NCBI GenBank assembly: GCA_023284085.1
Contig: JAKVHY010000009.1
Coordinates: 1 to 64,000 of the forward strand
Source of the DNA: Shewanella benthica
GTDB lineage: Bacteria; Pseudomonadota; Gammaproteobacteria; Enterobacterales; Shewanellaceae
Direction of reading: 5' to 3'
DNA length: 64,000 nucleotides
The notes under the pieces: model-generated
Database searches by the model: none
The model's input: the letters and a program-made list of their open reading frames with translations, nothing else
Told to the model about the DNA's origin: nothing
Position numbers and translations under genes: made by a program
Part shown: positions 5,771-38,175 of the stretch, one piece after another
How the letters are laid out: each line of letters starts with the position of its first letter
How positions within the stretch are numbered: the first letter of the stretch is position 1

Positions 5771-8605
5771 TCATTGCAGTAGTGGTTTAAGAAAACGTGC
5801 CGTATGGGACTCCGGATGTTGAGCGATCTCTTCCGGGGTGCCGCTGACCAATATAGTTCCACCTCCGGCGCCGCCTTCGGGTCCTAAGTCGATGACCCAG
5901 TCGGCAGTCTTGATGACGTCCAAGTTGTGTTCGATCACCACTATGGTATTACCACGGGATTTTAGTCTATGCAAGACGTCCAAGAGTAACTGGATATCGG
6001 CGAAGTGCAGTCCGGTTGTCGGCTCATCGAGAATATACAGAGTCTTACCCGTGTCTCTTTTCGATAGCTCCTTGGCAAGCTTGACGCGCTGGGCTTCACC
6101 GCCTGACAGGGTCGTCGCACTCTGACCTAAGCCAATGTAAGAGAGGCCGACTTCCATCAACATCTGCAGTTTTCGGGAGATGGCTGGCACAGCATCGAAG
6201 AAACCTCGTGCCTCCTCGACAGTCATAGATAACACCTCGTGAATGTTTTTACCCTTGTATTTCACCTCTAAGGTTTCACGGTTATATCGCTGGCTCTTAC
6301 AGTTGTCACAAGGGACATAAACATCCGGTAGGAAATGCATCTCAACTTTAATTAGACCATCGCCCTGACAGGCTTCACAGCGGCCGCCCTTGACGTTGAA
6401 AGAGAAACGTCCCGGCTTATAGCCTCGTGTGCGTGACTCTTGAGTCGCGGCAAACAGCTCACGTATCGGGGTGAAAATGCCAGTATAGGTGGCCGGATTG
6501 GATCTGGGCGTGCGACCAATAGGACTCTGATCGATATCGACCACCTTATCGCAGTGATCCATGCCCTCGATACTCTTATAAGGGGAGGGCTCATCGACGG
6601 TAGCACCATTGAGTTGTCTGTGGGCTATCTTGTAGAAGGTGTCGTTTATCAGTGTCGACTTGCCGGAACCTGATACACCGGTGACACAGGTGAACAGGCC
6701 GACCGGAATGGTTAAATCCACATCTTGAAGGTTGTTGCCGCTGGCCCCGAATAGCTCAATCACTTTGTCGCCGTCGTAAGCAACGCGTTCTTCACTGATA
6801 TGGATCTTTTTAGCGCCAGACAGATATTGGCCGGTGATCGAAGCCTCACAGTCGAGAATATCTTGCAGTGTGCCATCACAGATCACCTCGCCGCCATGGA
6901 TCCCGGCTCCGGGGCCGATATCGATAATGTGATCGGCCATCTTGATCGCATCTTCGTCGTGCTCGACGACGATCACCGTGTTACCTATGTCTCTTAGATG
7001 AACCAAGGTTTCCAGCAAGCGCTCATTATCTCTCTGGTGTAGGCCAATAGAAGGTTCGTCGAGTACATACATGACACCGACCAGTCCGGCACCAATCTGG
7101 CTGGCGAGTCTGATCCTCTGGGCCTCTCCGCCGGATAAAGTCTCCGCAGAACGGGATAGACTCAGATAATTGAGTCCCACATTGACCAGGAAGCCGAGTC
7201 TGTTGCGTACTTCCTTGAGGATCTTCTCTGCTATCTGACCCTTTTGACCTGGGAGTTCTAGACTGCTGAAGTAGTCCATCGCCTCGCCGATAGACCATTC
7301 GGTCAGTATCGGCAGGTTAAGATCTTTGATAAATACGTTTCTCGCCTCTTCCCGCAGACGAGAGCCACCACAGCTTTGACAGGACTGAGTATTGATGAAC
7401 TTAGCTAACTCTTCACGGACGGCATTTGACTCGGTTTCACGGTAACGACGATCCATGTTGTTGAGAATGCCTTCGAAAGGGTGGTTACGTACCACTACAT
7501 CCCCTCGGTCATTGATGTACTTGAAGGAAATGCTTTCCTTTCCGGATCCGTATAACACCAGCTTGCGTACGTCATCGGTCAGTTGCTGGTAGGGTGTTTC
7601 AATATCAAATTTATAGTGTTCGGCTAATGAACTGAGCATCTGAAAATAATAGAAGTTGCGTCTATCCCAGCCACGAATAGCGCCGCCAGCCAGGGACATT
7701 TCAGAATTCAATATCACGCGGTCTGCATCGAAAAACTGCTGTACACCTAAGCCATCACAGGTGCCACAGGCGCCAGCCGGATTATTGAAGGAGAATATTC
7801 TCGGCTCCAATTCGGCCATGGAATAACCACATTGTGGGCAGGCAAAGTTTGCAGAAAACAAGAGATCTTCTGTTTGGGTTTGTTTGTCATTATCCATAGA
7901 GGCGACAGTCGCAATGCCACCGGATAGCTCGAGTGCGGTTTCGAATGACTCGGCCAGGCGCTGCTTAATATCGTCTCGTACCTTGAAGCGGTCGACGACG
8001 ACTTCTATGGTGTGCTTCACATGTAACTCTAATTCTGGTGGATCGGTCAGATCGCAGACCTCCCCATCGATACGGGCACGAATAAACCCTTGAGCCGCCA
8101 GACTCTCGAGGAGTTTGACATGCTCGCCCTTGCGATTGTTGACCACGGGGGCCAGTAGCATTTGGCGGCTGCCTTCGGGCAACTCTATGACCTTATCGAC
8201 CATCTGACTGACCGTCTGCGCGGCGAGTGGTTGGCCATGGGTCGGACAACGGGGCTCACCGACACGGGCAAAAAGCAAGCGCAGATAGTCGTAGATCTCC
8301 GTGATAGTGCCTACGGTGGATCTGGGGTTGTGGGATGTGGATTTTTGTTCAATTGAGATGGCTGGGCTGAGGCCTTCAATCAGATCGACATCAGGCTTTT
8401 CCATCAGGCTTAAAAATTGGCGCGCATAGGCGGAGAGAGATTCGACATAGCGTCTCTGGCCTTCAGCATACAAGGTGTCGAAGGCCAGGGATGATTTTCC
8501 TGAGCCTGAAAGGCCGGTGATCACAATCAACTTGTTTCTGGGAATCGTTAAGTCGATGTTTTTTAGATTGTGGGTGCGGGCGCCACGTACTTCAATCTTG
8601 TCCAT
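5771..8605 (-). CDS. uvrA: UvrA, excinuclease ABC subunit A
   Basis: DNA-damage recognition ATPase of nucleotide excision repair; it loads UvrB at lesions. The 944 residues match the family length of about 940. It begins [17 protein letters not shown] and has two ABC ATPase modules. The first Walker A is GLSGSGKSS, with signature [16 protein letters not shown]. The second Walker A is GVSGSGKST, with signature [15 protein letters not shown]. Zinc-binding Cys pairs are visible as CPQCGYS with CGTCDG, as CQSCGG, and as CEACQGDG with [10 protein letters not shown]. The gene stands alone on the minus strand. No CTG-N10-CAG LexA box could be found between 8606 and 8700, although uvrA is SOS-controlled in many relatives. 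The 39-bp repeat array begins less than 100 bases upstream of the start. Confidence 0.97.
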
Positions 8606-8685
8606 CTGTCTCTCTGTACCGAATAAAAAAGAGATCGATTATCGCATAAAAAATGATAAAAGCGGAGCTGCTTTAACTCGAGTGA

Positions 8686-9140
8686 CAAGAGCGTTCGCAG
8701 GCTCACTTCTAGGACGCTGCGCTGCGAGTACGTTCGCAAGCTCACTTCTAGGACGCTGCGCTTCGAGTGCGTTCGTAAACTCACTTCTAGGACGCTGCGC
8801 TGCGAGTGCGTTCGTAAACTCACTTCTAGGACGCTGCGCTGCGAGTGCGTTCGTAAACTCACTTCTAGGACGCTGCGCTTCGAGTGCGTTCGTAAACTCA
8901 CTCCTAGGACGCTGCGCTGCGAGTACGTTCGTAAACTCACTTCTAGGACGCTTCGCTGCGAGTGCGTTCGTAAGCTCACTTCTAGGACGCTTCGCTGCGA
9001 GTGCGTTCGTAAACTCACTTCTAGGACGCTTCGCTGCGAGAGCGTTCGCAAGCTCACTTCGAGAACGCTTCGCTTCGAGTTCGTTCGCAAGCTCACTTCG
9101 AGGACGCTTTGCTGCGAGTGCGTTCGTAAACTCACTTCGA
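8686..9140. repeat. 39-bp tandem repeat array, twelve copies
   Basis: The hexamer CTCACT recurs exactly every 39 bases at 8702, 8741, 8780, 8819, 8858, 8897, 8936, 8975, 9014, 9053, 9092 and 9131. Each unit reads roughly TTCTAGGACGCTKCGCTKCG, then AGTGCGTTCGTAAACTCAC. Variation is concentrated at a few positions (CTGCG versus CTTCG, GTAAAC versus GCAAGC). The outermost copies at the right switch TTCTAGG to TTCGAGA/G. Because 39 is a multiple of three, long frames stay open on both strands; these look like artefacts. There are no unique spacers, so this is not a CRISPR. Confidence 0.95.
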
Positions 9141-9364
9141 GAACGGGAACAAGTTCCCTACGAGATAAGAGCAAAAGCTTTTTCTCGCAGCGGCTTTGCC
9201 GCGTTCTCGCAGGCCGTAGGCCATCCTCGCAGTGACGAAGTCACGTTCTAGCAGCGGCTTGCCGCGTTCTCGAAGGCCGTAGGCCGTCCTCGCAGTGACG
9301 AAGTCACGTCCTAGCAGCGGCTTGCCGCATTCTCGAAGGCCGCTTTTCTGTGGCTAAGTCACAT
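9141..9364. repeat. Modular hairpin array 1 (short inverted repeats joined by a common linker)
   Basis: A chain of small stem-loops follows the tandem array directly. The stems are: GGGAAC/GTTCCC at 9145-9158; GCGGC/GCCGC at 9190-9202, 9254-9265 and 9317-9328; GGCC-GTA-GGCC at 9212-9222 and 9275-9285; and GTGAC-GAA-GTCAC at 9232-9244 and 9295-9307. A last imperfect GTGGC/GTCAC lies near 9350-9361. Linkers between stems resemble CGTTCTCGCA or CGTTCTAGCA. The trio of stems repeats with a period of 63-64 bases. Confidence 0.9.
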
Positions 9365-9465
9365 TTTCATCATCTCGAAGCTGCATTCAGTTAGCTGCTT
9401 TGCGCTTATAAACTGCTTCGTGATAACATGCGCGACTTATTTATGACTTCAGATCAGGGCGGAAT

Positions 9466-10833
9466 ATGGCCAATAACGGACTCTCAAAGACTGAGACAAA
9501 AGTCGCGTTTTCATTAGCCGGTGTATTTGGTTTGCGAATGATGGGCTTATTTATGATCATGCCTGTCTTTGCATTATACGGGCAACATCTCGAAGGTTTT
9601 TCACCGCTTTGGGTAGGAATAGCCATAGGTGCATATGGTCTGACGCAAGCCGCTCTACAGATCCCCATGGGGATTCTATCGGATAAGTTTGGCCGTAAAC
9701 CTATCATCCTCATAGGTCTGGTAGTGTTTGCTATCGGTAGCTTGGTCGCGGCCAATGCCGAGACGATTTATGGTGTCGTTGCTGGTCGAGCAATACAGGG
9801 AATGGGGGCGATTGCCTCAGCGGTGTTAGCCTTGGCTGCCGATTTAACTCGGGATGAGCAGCGCACTAAGGTGATGGCGATTATCGGCATGTGCATAGGT
9901 TTCTCCTTCGCGCTGTCGTTATTGGTCGGGCCTATCGTTGCCCAGTATGTTGGTTTATCGGGCCTATTTGCCTTGACGGCGTGTCTGGCGGTACTAGGCA
10001 TGTTGATCGTTCAGTTTCTGGTGCCGACTCCCATCACGCACGCGCCGAAAGGTGACACAGTGGCGACGCCTACCAAGTTAAAGGCCATGATCACCGACCC
10101 ACAACTATTCAGACTCGATGCAGGAATATTCATTCTACACTTAGTGCTGACGGCAGTATTTGTGGCCTTGCCACTGGATTTGGTGGATGCAGGCTTAGTG
10201 AAAGAGAAGCACTGGATGCTCTATTTCCCAGCCTTTATCGCTGCATTCTTCCTTATGGTGCCGTTGATCGTTATCGGGGTGAAGAAGAAAAATACTAAGG
10301 CCACTTTTCAGGTATCTCTGTTGGTCATGATGTTGGCCTTAGCTTTGATGGCGCTATTTACCCACAACCTAATGGTATTGAGTATCGCTGTGGTGCTATT
10401 TTTTACCGGTTTTAACTATCTGGAAGCCTCACTGCCCAGTTTGATCGCCAAGTTTTGTCCGGTGGGAGATAAGGGCTCTGCCATGGGAGTTTACTCTACC
10501 AGTCAATTTCTCGGTGCCTTCTGTGGTGGCTTACTCGGTGGCGGTGCATTTCAATTATTGGGTGCCGTCGGGGTATTTTCGGCCGCTCTGTGCTTGATGA
10601 CTGTCTGGTTGTTGTTGACCTTAGGCATGGAGAATCCTGTGTTGCTTAAGAGCTATACCCTTGAAGCAACAGTAGAAGGTAAAGAACAGGCCAAGGCGAT
10701 GGCAAGTGAGTTGTCGCAATTAACCGGAGTTGCCGAGGCGATAGTTGTCTTAGAAGAGAGAGTCGCATATTTAAAAGTTGATGAGCATTTCGATTTAAGA
10801 GAAGCGCGAGCTGTGTTAGGCTCTGTCAGCTAA
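9466..10833 (+). CDS. yajR: YajR-type major facilitator transporter with C-terminal YAM domain
   Basis: A 455-residue MFS transporter; E. coli YajR is 454. Twelve hydrophobic segments span about residues 15-385. The family loop motif A appears after TM2 as GILSDKFGRKP, and a motif-B-like arginine as GRAIQGMGA. After TM12 comes a soluble domain of about 70 residues (KEQAKAMASELSQLTGV, then AIVVLEERVAYLKVD). It matches the ferredoxin-like YAM domain that distinguishes YajR from ordinary drug pumps. The physiological substrate of YajR is uncertain, and proton-driven export is the usual assumption. The start ATG has GGGCGGA just upstream. ssb follows 77 bases downstream on the same strand. Confidence 0.88.
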   Translation: MANNGLSKTETKVAFSLAGVFGLRMMGLFMIMPVFALYGQHLEGFSPLWVGIAIGAYGLTQAALQIPMGILSDKFGRKPIILIGLVVFAIGSLVAANAETIYGVVAGRAIQGMGAIASAVLALAADLTRDEQRTKVMAIIGMCIGFSFALSLLVGPIVAQYVGLSGLFALTACLAVLGMLIVQFLVPTPITHAPKGDTVATPTKLKAMITDPQLFRLDAGIFILHLVLTAVFVALPLDLVDAGLVKEKHWMLYFPAFIAAFFLMVPLIVIGVKKKNTKATFQVSLLVMMLALALMALFTHNLMVLSIAVVLFFTGFNYLEASLPSLIAKFCPVGDKGSAMGVYSTSQFLGAFCGGLLGGGAFQLLGAVGVFSAALCLMTVWLLLTLGMENPVLLKSYTLEATVEGKEQAKAMASELSQLTGVAEAIVVLEERVAYLKVDEHFDLREARAVLGSVS

Positions 10834-33920: not shown

Positions 33921-34595
33921 ATGGAACCCGGTTTTTGGCATGACAAGTGGGATGCAAAGCATCTAGGTTTTCACTTGGGTGAGGTCAATGCATTATTGAT
34001 AAAATACTGGCCAGAATTAGCTTTAGGCAGTGATAGCCCTGGCTGTGACATCAATGTGTTTGTTCCCCTGTGTGGTAAGTCCCTCGATATGTGTTACTTA
34101 GCCGAGCAGGGCCACAACGTCCTTGGTTGTGAATTGAGTAAGAAGGCGGTCGAGCAGTTTTTCTCTGAAAATAACTTGCCTCACCAAATTGAGCCGTCAG
34201 ATCCCATTAATAAGTTCACCACCGAGCAGGTGACCATATTACAAGGTGATCTATTTACCTTAGCTCCCGAGCAGTTTACCGAAATTAATGCATTTTATGA
34301 TCGCGCCGCATTAATCGCTTGGCCCGAGTCTATGCGCCTCGCCTATGTAGATAAGATTTCTGCACTCATCCCCCCTAAGAGTGTTGGCTTGTTGATCACT
34401 TTAGATTATCTCCAAGAGGCGCTGAAAGGCCCACCATTTGCTGTGTCTAATGACTGGGTGATGGCGAATATGTCAGATACATTCGAGATAGAGTTGCTCA
34501 GCTGTGATGATGCACTGGCCGACAATCAAAGATTCGTGAATAAGGGTGTGCCTTGGCTGACTGAGTCGGTTTATAAGCTAGTCAGAAAAGGGTAG
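33921..34595 (+). CDS. tpm: Thiopurine S-methyltransferase
   Basis: A 224-residue SAM-dependent methyltransferase of the TPMT family, close to the bacterial length (about 218). It begins [20 protein letters not shown], the conserved N-terminal substrate-lid region. Then comes [21 protein letters not shown], the SAM-binding loop, and [14 protein letters not shown]. Bacterial TPMTs methylate thiopurines and can methylate selenium and tellurium compounds, giving metalloid tolerance. The stop codon is followed within five bases by the second hairpin array, so its mRNA probably carries the array as a 3' tail up to the terminator at 35004. Confidence 0.93.
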
Positions 34596-34599
34596 GGGG

Positions 34600-34980
34600 C
34601 GAGAACGCTGCGCTTCGAGAGCGTTCGCAGGCTCACTTCGAGGTCGCCAACACGTTGGCTACGGGTAAGAGCAACAGCCTTTGACCTGTCTTTTCCTCGC
34701 AGTCGCGCAGCGACGTCCTCGAAGGCGCTTTTCAGCCGTTCTAGCAGTGACAAAGTCACGCTCTAGCAGCGGCTTGCCGCGTTCTGTAGGGCAAAGCCCG
34801 TTCTCTGAGGCGCTTTCCAGCCGTTCTAGCAGTGACAAAGTCACGTTCTAGCAGCAGCTTTGCTGCGATCTCGCAGGCCGTAGGCCGCCCTCGCAGTGAC
34901 GAAGTCACGCTCTCGCAGCGGCTTGCCGCGTTCTGTAGGGCGAAGCCCGTTCTAGCAGCAGCTTTGCTGCGTTCTCGAAT
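34600..34980. repeat. Modular hairpin array 2
   Basis: Same construction as 9141-9364. The stems are: AACGCT/AGCGTT (34604-34625); GCCAAC/GTTGGC (34646-34659); GTCGC-GCA-GCGAC (34702-34714); GTGAC-AAA-GTCAC (34747-34759 and 34832-34844); GTGAC-GAA-GTCAC (34896-34908); GCGGC-TT-GCCGC (34769-34780 and 34918-34929); GGGC-AAA-GCCC and GGGC-GAA-GCCC (34789-34799, 34938-34948); GCAGC-TTT-GCTGC (34854-34866, 34958-34970); and GGCC-GTA-GGCC (34876-34886). Linkers again resemble GTTCTAGCA or GTTCTCGCA. The left end (34600-34645) contains one relic of the 39-bp tandem unit. Confidence 0.92.
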
Positions 34981-35003
34981 AATCATCTCTTTTTCTAAGG
35001 CAA

Positions 35004-35033
35004 CAAAAAAGCGACCATATGGTCGCTTTTTTT
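35004..35033. terminator. Bidirectional terminator, tpm / porin
   Basis: The perfect 16-bp palindrome GCGACCATATGGTCGC (35011-35026) is flanked by A6 on the left and T7 on the right. It can end both the rightward tpm/array transcript and the leftward porin transcript. Confidence 0.88.
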
Positions 35034-35053: not shown

Positions 35054-36082
35054 TTAGAAGTTGTAACGTACACCAACAGTTAATACGTTGTCGTCTTCTA
35101 GGTCAATTTTCATACCAGAAAGCTTGTAATCACCTTCGTACATAGCGTAGTGGCCATATACCATAGTCGATTTAGCGACCTTGTAGTCAGCACCAACAAT
35201 GATAGAGGTGATATTTACATCAGTAGTTTCTGTAGTCTGGATTCCTGAACGCTTAGCGTATAGACCTAGACCAGCTTCATCTTTACCGTACTCAGCTTTA
35301 AGGTTAACGCCGTTTAGGTTGTAAGATACGTTTACAAAGTAAGTGTTACCTTCAAGATTTGGCTTACTGATGCTTTCAGAGTTCTGGAATAAACCGCCTA
35401 GCTTGAAGCCAGCCAATTTAACTTGAGCAACACCACGGTAAGCATCCATTCCAGCGATGCCTTTGTTGTATGCACCAGCAACGTAGAAATTTTGCGCTTT
35501 AAGCTTCTTATCACCGATAGTCGTGCTTAATGCGTACTGATCATCAGCGTCTTCAACACCAGCTTGATTGTTGTCAGTCATCAGGTAAGTTGCGTTAAGC
35601 GTTACTAGATCAGCAATCTTTGGCGAGTAATACCAGATACCATCAGCTACACGTGATTGTGCACCGACTAGACGATCGATATCTGCGTTGCTGTTACCAA
35701 ATAGATCGATTCCGCCTTCGGCTTGCTTGAATACAGAGTCGTTACGACCAACAAGTACGGTACCTGCATTGGTCTTAAGACCTAGGTAAGTGTTACGCGC
35801 CTTGAACACATCGCTATTAGAAGAAGTGTTTTCGACCTGGAATTCCATCTGATAGATGATGTCGAAACCTTTAGCGATAGTCTCGCTACCTTTAACACCC
35901 ACGTGAGAGAAGTTGTTTTCTAGAACTGTACCTTCTTTGTTTTCACGTGAAGTTAGGCCAGTATCTGAGTTCGTCACAGATAGATCCAGACGACCGTAGA
36001 AGTTAGGTCCCTCGGCTAGCGCGCCGAATGATGCCAGAGTTAAAACCGATGCAACAGATGCAGAGATTAGAGTTTTTTTCAT
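35054..36082 (-). CDS. General outer-membrane porin (Gram-negative porin family), copy 1
   Basis: A 342-residue trimeric-porin-type protein. The signal peptide is MKKTLISASVASVLTLASFG with cleavage near ALA-EGPNFYG. The mature part begins with the family strand NFYGRLDLSVTNSD, has GVKGSETIAKGFDIIYQMEF and the pore-loop region GRNDSVFKQAEGGIDLFGN, and ends in an aromatic (VGVRYNF), as the outer-membrane sorting signal requires. It allows diffusion of small polar solutes. The start at 36082 is supported by GGGAGC upstream and by the signal peptide; the frame extends 12 codons further. It is about half identical by eye to copy 2 at 36594, and the two are probably transcribed separately. Confidence 0.92.
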   Translation of the reverse strand: MKKTLISASVASVLTLASFGALAEGPNFYGRLDLSVTNSDTGLTSRENKEGTVLENNFSHVGVKGSETIAKGFDIIYQMEFQVENTSSNSDVFKARNTYLGLKTNAGTVLVGRNDSVFKQAEGGIDLFGNSNADIDRLVGAQSRVADGIWYYSPKIADLVTLNATYLMTDNNQAGVEDADDQYALSTTIGDKKLKAQNFYVAGAYNKGIAGMDAYRGVAQVKLAGFKLGGLFQNSESISKPNLEGNTYFVNVSYNLNGVNLKAEYGKDEAGLGLYAKRSGIQTTETTDVNITSIIVGADYKVAKSTMVYGHYAMYEGDYKLSGMKIDLEDDNVLTVGVRYNF

Positions 36083-36593
36083 GTTTAAGTGCTCCCAAGA
36101 ACCTAAGTTCTTTTCCATTTTATAATGGTTATTTATGGTTTATTGCTCTTGCTGCAAGGGTCCATCCTTGTAACAAACATGGGGCCGAATCTTACAGTTT
36201 TATGCCAATAAAATTGTGGGCTAGATCAAAGTTTTACAGTCAAAGGATTGGTTCAACAAGAATTTGTGACAAATTTGACCTTTTAGCCTATATTTCGTCC
36301 AAACGCTGGAAATATAGCAATATTACCACCGCTTAATGTGTGCTATATGCTTTAAATTTAATTTAGCTGTAGCTTTATGAGTTAACGCTAAATTATCAAC
36401 TCGATTGCAATATCTCGTCATTAAATTGTTTAAAAAGTAATCGGTTACTGCAGTGAAAGATATTTACTAGTTACAAGAGATTGAGCTATGTGGTGTTTCT
36501 GGTGGGCGGCATGTGAGCATGTCTCACTAGTTTGAATATAAGAAAGGCGACTTTAAAAGTCGCCTCGTTTGGAAATAGGACTCCTGATTGGGA
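36083..36593. other. Region between the two porin genes
   Basis: No gene seen. It is A/T-rich and holds the promoter of porin copy 1 and, at its right end, the terminator of copy 2 (36541-36566). No regulator site could be named with confidence. Confidence 0.5.
36541..36566 (-). terminator. Terminator of porin copy 2
   Basis: AGGCGACTT (36545-36553) pairs with AAGTCGCCT (36557-36565). On the minus strand TTCTT follows. It lies about 30 bases past the stop codon. Confidence 0.75.
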
Positions 36594-37652
36594 TTAGAAG
36601 TCGAAGCGCATACCTATAGTGAATAGTTCATCGCTTAGATCGTGTGTTGCTGTGCTGTTTAGCTTTAAATCACCATCATATTTCGTGTAATGACCATAGA
36701 TCAGTGTGCTCTTACTTAAGCGATAATCGGCACCGACACTGAACTGTTGTAGATCGACATCAGAAACTTGCTCTAAGTTTCCATCACTATTACCTATAGC
36801 GCGGCTAACGAACTGACCGAGACCCGAATTATCATTACCATACATGGCTTTTAGCTTAAGATTACCTATTAGGTAAGCGGCACTCACAAAGTAAGTGTCA
36901 CCTTCAAGGTGCGCGAGTTTGTCATCCAGGCTTTCGGTATTTTGATAGAAACCACCCAAGATCAGATCGCCAAATTTGACTTGAGCGACACCTCTGTAAG
37001 CTTTAACGTCATCTATACCGTCATTATATGCCGCTGCAAGATAGTAGTTTTGTGCTTTTAGTGCCTTGTCACCTAAGGTTGCACTTAAGGCATACATGTT
37101 GTCAGGTGCGATACGTTCTTCACCGTCGTAAGTAACATAGTTATCTTCAACAAGGTAAGTTACGTTTAGTGTCACCAGATCGGCAATTTTAGGTGAATAG
37201 TAAGTGATACCATCGGCTGTACGAGACTGACCCGCAGCCAGGAGATCGATATCTGAGTTGGTGTTACCGAAGAGGTCGAAGCCACCTTCAGATGCTTTAA
37301 ATACCGTATCGTTACGGCCTATTAATGCTGTACCCGCGACAGTTCTTAAGCCTAGATATGTATTACGTGCTGCGAACGTATCACCTGAGTTGTCGAAGTT
37401 ACTCACACCAAATTCCATCTGATAGATAACTTCCAGATCATCATTGATTCTCTCTGTGCCTTTAACCCCTAACCAAGAGAAGTTATTTTCAATAATGGTG
37501 CCATTTTTCTGATTTTGGGTCGCAACTCCTGTGTCAGAATGAGTAAAAGCAAGATCGGCACGACCATAAAAATGTGGGCCATCTGCAAGTGCAGAAAAAG
37601 AAGTTATCGCTAGAGTCGATAAAATAGTGGCGGACAGAACAGTTTTCTTCAT
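36594..37652 (-). CDS. General outer-membrane porin, copy 2
   Basis: A 352-residue paralogue of the porin at 35054. The signal peptide MKKTVLSATILSTLAITSFS is followed by ALADGPHFYGRADLAF. It shares GVKGTERINDDLEVIYQMEF, RNTYLGLRTVAGTALIGRND and FDLFGNTNSDIDLL with copy 1, and ends IGMRFDF with the C-terminal phenylalanine. The start at 37652 has AGGAAGA upstream; the frame is open 19 codons further, but those precede the signal peptide. Loops differ from copy 1, which suggests different solute preference or expression conditions. Both copies have their own terminators. Confidence 0.92.
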   Translation of the reverse strand: MKKTVLSATILSTLAITSFSALADGPHFYGRADLAFTHSDTGVATQNQKNGTIIENNFSWLGVKGTERINDDLEVIYQMEFGVSNFDNSGDTFAARNTYLGLRTVAGTALIGRNDTVFKASEGGFDLFGNTNSDIDLLAAGQSRTADGITYYSPKIADLVTLNVTYLVEDNYVTYDGEERIAPDNMYALSATLGDKALKAQNYYLAAAYNDGIDDVKAYRGVAQVKFGDLILGGFYQNTESLDDKLAHLEGDTYFVSAAYLIGNLKLKAMYGNDNSGLGQFVSRAIGNSDGNLEQVSDVDLQQFSVGADYRLSKSTLIYGHYTKYDGDLKLNSTATHDLSDELFTIGMRFDF

Positions 37653-38175
37653 GTGGGTCTTCCTGTTGCTAGTTTTTATCATCAACCGGGGAGTTGATGA
37701 GCATTTCATTGGGTTCTAGATTCAAAACTTATTAGGGGCGACAATACGGTTAAATATGACGCTGACATTCTGTATGTTTCGAACTGATTCTGTCATAAAT
37801 AAGGAACCAACCTATGAGATGTTGGTCACACTTGGTGGATCTATAGCTGGTTGTATCACATTATTTTACAAGGTTTATTTGTCGTGTGTTTAAATTACTA
37901 ACAAGGGAATCTTGGCTTTTTCTGATGCTTAATAATTGATGACTTTTATTAACTGACGTGACTGTCTTTTGCGCCTTACTTGCAAAGCTTCACTGGAAAT
38001 AAGACAGGAATTTTTAGTCTTTATTTATCAAATGAGATAATATCTGCCGGCTTATACCTTTATGTCACGAATACTCGACTTTCAGCACTATACTATCTGA
38101 GTGGGGTGAGTGAGATAGGGGAATTAGCTAGCCTCATTCTACAAGTTACCATTTATTTTTTGTTTGGAGATTTCG
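37653..38175. other. Divergent intergenic region, porin copy 2 / tcdA
   Basis: No supported gene. It is A/T-rich with no clear dyad; promoter elements for both genes must lie here. A short open frame at 37980-38210 has no coding features. Confidence 0.5.

Follow-up and report, generated by a model that had tools for sequence, protein, structure and literature searches.

The BOX elements of pneumococcus are modular repeats of intergenic DNA whose inner modules vary in number, a design that recurs in the arrays discussed here; their sequences differ from those of the array units. GTAG-tagged REPs, BIMEs and REPINs, which occur with RAYT (TnpA-REP) transposases, are like the arrays in being short, palindromic, intergenic repeats that cluster, lie near gene 3′ ends and form inverted pairs, and their descriptions give a REP stem of 5-13 bp (PMC3733652) or a basal stem of 7-20 nt (PMC6006769). 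CGTC-tagged REPs resemble the arrays as palindromic repeats without a dedicated transposase and have stems of 8-9 bp and loops of 4-5 nt (PMC3733652). A physical counterpart comes from work with oligonucleotides, where a GNA loop closed by two or more G-C pairs gives an extraordinarily stable DNA mini-hairpin and GCGAAGC has a Tm of 78 °C (PMC4686876).

The element downstream of tpm in the window (the whole 64,000-nucleotide stretch of Shewanella benthica DNA that was analysed) is best read as a member of a REP/BIME-like DNA repeat family in which the linker, not the stem, is conserved. In contrast to GTAG REPs as portrayed in PMC3733652 and PMC6006769, the arrays keep their linker while the stem varies, follow a fixed left-centre-right plan and have stems of 2-6 bp, some of which reach the 5 bp of the REP range and none 7. 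They also lack the GTAG or GTGG expected 0-2 nt 5′ of a REP hairpin, with only 37 of 319 linkers ending in GTA before the stem G, and the array repeat is not the one bordering the RAYT genes read. From the CGTC-tagged repeats (PMC3733652) the arrays differ in their shorter stems and their loops of mostly 2-3 nt. A description of this array family was not found in the open-access literature searched, and one may be in print elsewhere.

The first repeat begins about 3 nt past the tpm stop codon, and the repeats extend to about 34985 (Table 1). Sixteen short units make up the element, the majority being a conserved linker with a small hairpin, and they are laid out as a mosaic of left sub-array, centre and right sub-array. 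Left linkers have the family form CTGCGAGAACG; right linkers are CGTTCTAGCAG and similar, with the family form CGTTCTCGCAG, which is the reverse complement of the left one. A previous sequence-only reading of this DNA had reported that the linkers of another array recur after the tpm stop, which they do, but it missed the reversal between the two parts. The centre is GGTAAGAGCAACAGCC, for which several other copies have AAGAGCAAAAGCTTTT instead, and linkers lie 20-22 bp apart across much of the right half. That reading had also placed several of the same stems there, and the counts agree: nine perfect hairpins (stem of at least 5 bp, loop of 2-4) fall within 34598-34985, whereas 2000 dinucleotide shuffles have a mean of 1.69 (sd 1.18) and never hold more than 7. 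GCGGC-TT-GCCGC is found at 34769-34780 and 34918-34929, and GCAGC-TTT-GCTGC at 34854-34866 and 34958-34970. The paired G-to-A and C-to-T change reported between these stems is real because the first GCGGC and the first GCAGC unit sit at the ends of two copies, 90% identical, of a 62-nt direct repeat; the loop has changed as well.

Table 1. Features of the element downstream of tpm and of its second copy in the window.
Feature	Position	Strand	Details
tpm (thiopurine S-methyltransferase / TPMT family)	33921-34595	+	
Whole repeat element downstream of tpm	34598-34985	+	
Left sub-array	34600-34660	-	linkers of reverse complement type
Left sub-array linkers	34613-34623; 34636-34646		CTTCGAGAGCG; CTTCGAGGTCG
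Left sub-array hairpins	34619-34634; 34646-34659		GAGCGTTCGCAGGCTC; GCCAACACGTTGGC
Mini-hairpin GCGCAGC	34607-34613	-	in left sub-array
Centre	34664-34694	.	start is GGTAAGAGCAACAGCCTTTGACC
Right sub-array	34695-34985	+	10 linker matches, 13 units
Right sub-array linker matches	34714, 34737, 34759, 34822, 34844, 34866, 34886, 34908, 34948, 34970		
Right sub-array units GTCGC	34702		
Right sub-array units GGCGC	34724, 34809		
Right sub-array units GTGAC	34747, 34832, 34896		
Right sub-array units GCGGC	34769, 34918		
Right sub-array units GGGC	34789, 34938		
Right sub-array units GCAGC	34854, 34958		
Right sub-array units GGCC	34876		
14-bp perfect palindrome and T-run	35005-35032	.	probable terminator, common to tpm and convergent porin gene
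Porin gene	35054-36118	-	convergent to tpm
Second copy	8680-9345	+	same plan; 23 left and 7 right linkers
uvrA	5771-8605	-	flanks second copy, divergent from MFS gene
MFS gene	9466-10833	+	flanks second copy, divergent from uvrA

The strong terminator at which the array was said to end is probably a T-tailed palindrome, missed by one terminator scan and recovered by a second, but it starts about 20 nt beyond the array. The palindrome and its T-run also occur in the two other genomes read at the tpm site, and because the array lies between the tpm stop and the shared terminator in all three, its transcription together with tpm is plausible. Beyond the terminator, two similar porin-like genes stand in tandem on the minus strand, the second at 36594-37709. 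Rfam at gathering score returned only a tRNA from the window and no known RNA family for the element. A phage or plasmid origin was considered and set aside, blastn against phage and plasmid collections having given no match.

Maintenance of base pairing was assessed on 24 distinct 13-nt units picked by their flanking linkers and not by their pairing. In this set 96.7% of cells are paired and 27 cells are changed on both sides, compared with 7.8 in shuffles; the covariation score is 0.634, compared with 0.215 in shuffles and at most 0.203 for slid partners. The number of pairs with a double change (three of five) is no higher than in shuffles (2.6). All 24 units keep the outer G-C, and 22 of 24 close the loop with C-G. 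Stem covariation is therefore supported as real and pairing as maintained, as had been proposed. The further step from maintained pairing to a 3′ UTR RNA is weaker. Covarying stems are present, as a structural RNA in a 3′ UTR would need, but covariation cannot separate RNA from DNA folding, arm templating or unit exchange; since a unit may be swapped as a whole, or one arm may serve as template for the other, the paired changes are not independent RNA-selected events. Stem mismatches number 9 G-T and 2 A-C (two-sided binomial 0.065; 8:2 by distinct unit, p 0.11), an excess that leans towards G-U tolerance on small counts. The global fold, in which left linkers would pair with right linkers, scores a modest z -2.28 as RNA, -2.06 as DNA and -0.90 as RNA of the opposite strand, and the copy at 8686 scores z -2.00.

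Loops, which had been described as varying freely, obey a rule across the family. Among 319 linker-flanked interiors surveyed, 232 are simple hairpins with at most one mispair, having stems of 2-6 bp and loops of 2-3 nt, and 230 of these close the loop with C-G. GNA accounts for 158 of the 193 triloops and TNC for none; it is seen on 13 of 18 triloop stems and on none of the 17 triloop units whose stem is GCAGC or GCGGC. Longer units, most of which share a C-GNA-G core, often have A-T one pair further from the loop than the closing pair. The other 87 interiors are not simple hairpins, and 53 of them are of the left type GTGAG..GAAC. Seven-nt interiors read GCG(A/C/T)AGC in 63 of 72 cases (GCGAAGC 37, GCGCAGC 21, GCGTAGC 5), exactly the sequence type of the d(GCGNAGC) mini-hairpins in PMC4686876, which concerns a physical motif studied in oligonucleotides whereas the array is a repeat family. 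No report of natural chromosomal arrays of these mini-hairpins was found in the literature searched. Many array units carry the GNA loop on at least two G-C pairs that marks a DNA mini-hairpin. The predicted energy of GCGAAGC is +2.0 kcal/mol as RNA and +1.2 kcal/mol with the Vienna DNA parameters, which hold no special mini-hairpin stability, so the stability argument rests on the published measurement (PMC4686876). Two-bp units are predicted to be unfolded as RNA. CGNAG is present in many linkers too, which makes shared origin an alternative to selection as the source of the loop rule.

The related array that had been noted about 25 kb away is found between uvrA and the MFS gene, and the S. 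benthica genome holds five further loci. There are 23 matches at these seven loci, the post-tpm locus included, and the remaining six show the same left-centre-right plan or its broken or repeated form. Six of the seven arrays begin at most 31 nt from a stop codon pointing at the array; the seventh, at uvrA/MFS, sits between divergent genes, and that divergent site is occupied by the element in five genomes (S. benthica and four others). At least 55 of 152 family genomes match, all of them Shewanella and none outside the genus, the match counts being lower bounds with four candidates scored per genome. One exact 23-nt unit is present in 2 of 394 order genomes, both of the window's genus, a narrow pattern that misses most sampled members of the genus, and all 20 stretches with one exact unit in named genomes are from Shewanella. 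Junctions occupied by the family are shared by as many as twelve related species. In some species the form is simpler, combining CCTAGCA linkers with GCGAAGC or GTGACGAAGTCAC hairpins, and linker spacing is 16 bp in other species. The arrays form regional clusters, with a few copies outside them: all eight pattern matches of G048 fall at 692-761 kb (69 kb) on a single strand, and four of the five matches of G094 fall within 76 kb, likewise on one strand.

Array sites are old and their contents young. The array after tpm (the tpm/porin site) is present in three genomes, other sites are occupied in one to five, and the metL-metF array occurs in nine genomes of the site survey as well as in G115, G106 and G146. 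The tpm ends of the S. benthica genome and G035 are identical at 576 of 600 positions, yet the array intervals measure 404 and 229 nt, and the uvrA site has 23 left linkers in one genome and 6 in another. Arrays within G115 share 0.389 of their 18-mers, compared with 0.048 for orthologous sites; in the S. benthica genome the five clustered arrays average about 0.12, and clustered versus two distant arrays share 0.01. Within-genome likeness exceeds orthologous likeness in only two of six genomes (G048 and G115), while in the S. benthica genome, G094, G144 and G035 orthologous sites are on average more alike. Local copying between arrays is therefore evident in one genome and patchy in the others. 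At the junction of the TraF_2-family and TauE genes (Pfam names), where the stop codons converge, the gap is 0-9 bp in five genomes without an array and 191-665 bp, filled by an array, in nine. This pattern suggests that arrays were inserted into a tiny gap or grew inside it. The other four of the 18 loci read are those of G028 and G030, with gaps of 59 and 67 bp, of G036, where the 303 bp hold no linkers, and of G115, which breaks off. G092 and G046 were excluded; five of 20 genomes had no match and G044 had a weak match only. No target-site duplication was recognised at the junctions inspected. The motif AGAAGGGCG opens the left ends of many arrays (e.g., L105-L108, L118 and L140) and is a possible end signal; 22 of its 29 copies lie beside linkers, compared with 0 of 12 for the reversed motif. 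A search for facing pairs of the motif found none, so we make no claim of a transposon end.

We place slightly on the probable side the explanation that the element is one copy of genus-wide intergenic arrays of linkers and mini-hairpins that fold on single-stranded DNA, the folding driving slippage, arm correction and local copying. The hairpin units would fold on single-stranded DNA in the cell, and folding would in turn drive slippage of the array, arm-to-arm correction and copying between nearby arrays, perhaps through replication slippage plus local template switching or recombination. In transcripts that span it, an array would for the most part be a passenger, although 3′-end formation may have recruited some copies. 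The arrays are most likely a DNA-level phenomenon, possibly selfish and probably not the product of resident RAYT transposases. In favour of DNA folding are the loop rule, the turnover in array length, the local copying in G115, the same-strand clusters, the filled versus near-empty junctions and the divergent uvrA/MFS site; the loop rule, the two-bp units, the divergent site and the inverted half-arrays fit DNA better than RNA. Against it stand the GCAGC and GCGGC triloops that never carry GNA, the interiors that are not simple hairpins and homogenisation above orthologous likeness in a minority of genomes, while metL-metF and the G-T excess favour RNA. If DNA folding is correct, the arrays are a natural multi-species record of how DNA mini-hairpins fold in the chromosomes of living cells; they also caution that covarying stems alone do not establish a functional RNA.

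The alternative that survives best, though we regard it as rather unlikely, is an RNA element: transcription of arrays at gene 3′ ends would yield chains of hairpins able to block 3′ exonucleases or to replace intrinsic terminators. Its best evidence comes from the gap between metL (here the aspartokinase/homoserine dehydrogenase gene upstream of metF) and metF, where an intrinsic terminator follows metL at 0 of 11 sites with an array versus 8 of 9 without. The comparison covers 20 of 32 genomes, the 12 in which metL and metF were not recognised as neighbours having been dropped; one of these 12, G115, has an array there without a terminator. The Fisher value of 7e-5 overstates the case because the genomes are related. 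Four of the 11 array sites have a T-tailed palindrome near metF (met-box), which was not counted because all 20 genomes carry this operator-like sequence; if these palindromes count, terminators stand at 4 of 11 array sites. Terminators occur in 39 of 220 gaps of the same regions, a baseline that led us to drop a general loss of terminators at arrays and keep the matched comparison only. Some arrays may have taken over 3′-end formation, and stem covariation, the proximity of six of the seven S. benthica arrays to a stop codon and the mismatch excess also speak for RNA. An element always downstream in sense does not agree with the divergent uvrA/MFS site in five genomes, nor does an RNA role agree with two-bp units predicted to be unfolded, the terminator retained beside the tpm array in three of three genomes, a modest global fold or TraF_2/TauE relatives without an array, which leave no room for a terminator. 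With array or plain terminator on the same gene pair among relatives, metL-metF makes a repeat takeover of termination directly testable.

We think it unlikely, as a bolder form of DNA folding, that the arrays are self-propagating intergenic DNA whose replicator is the folded, extraordinarily stable single-stranded mini-hairpin itself, multiplied by slippage and template switching at replication forks. If true, paired stem changes would arise with no selection on RNA, and same-strand regional clusters and transposase-free spread would follow.

Mobilisation of ordinary REP-type repeats by a RAYT transposase seems improbable for the arrays, although they are intergenic, palindromic, clustered and at times in inverted pairs, and a Y1_Tnp gene is present in 15 of 20 genomes searched. 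Six of the seven RAYT-like genes with flanks read are bordered by a different, canonical GTAG repeat and L155 by none seen, and at none of these seven loci does the array repeat border the RAYT gene as in a REPtron. Array units lie near two RAYT-like genes (L151 and L162), in L162 outside the GTAG repeats, and five genomes with array matches have no Y1_Tnp match. The flanking GTAG repeats and the Y1_Tnp-less genomes thus disfavour present mobilisation by RAYT, as does the rarity of GTA at linker ends. The GTAG repeats (such as GTAGGAGCGGCTTTAGCCGCGA and GTAGGTCGGCATTTATGCCGTC) are a second family in the same genomes: they border L009, L157, L163 and L164 and, in another type, L151 and L162. 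At L162 and L107 this second family adjoins the array units or is interspersed with them.

It is likewise doubtful that the linker is a site for a DNA-binding protein with hairpins as spacers, since the conserved linkers, their regular spacing in the right half and the same-strand clusters are matched against paired stem changes and a loop rule left unexplained, 16-bp spacing in other species and a cluster whose distance from dnaA (the position marker) is 0.7-0.9 Mb in G048, G094, G144 and G131, whereas in G093 it is close to the middle of the chromosome. Leading-strand orientation fits many arrays in complete genomes; it fails for sites in G144 (4.49 Mb), G146 and G131 (2.2 Mb), and the same strand bias is seen in genes, so orientation was not used as evidence. 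Several genomes have a longer insert (GGGTGAATATGGTGAAGCCATTAGCTCATGAAC...) within left sub-arrays, not always at the same site, as in L017 (G115) at about 1400-1500 and in arrays of G144 and G106. In L127 (G092) a two-unit repeat of 36-38 nt is present in about 13 tandem copies that look perfect (about 9417-10214), which makes it a strong candidate for a variable-number locus.
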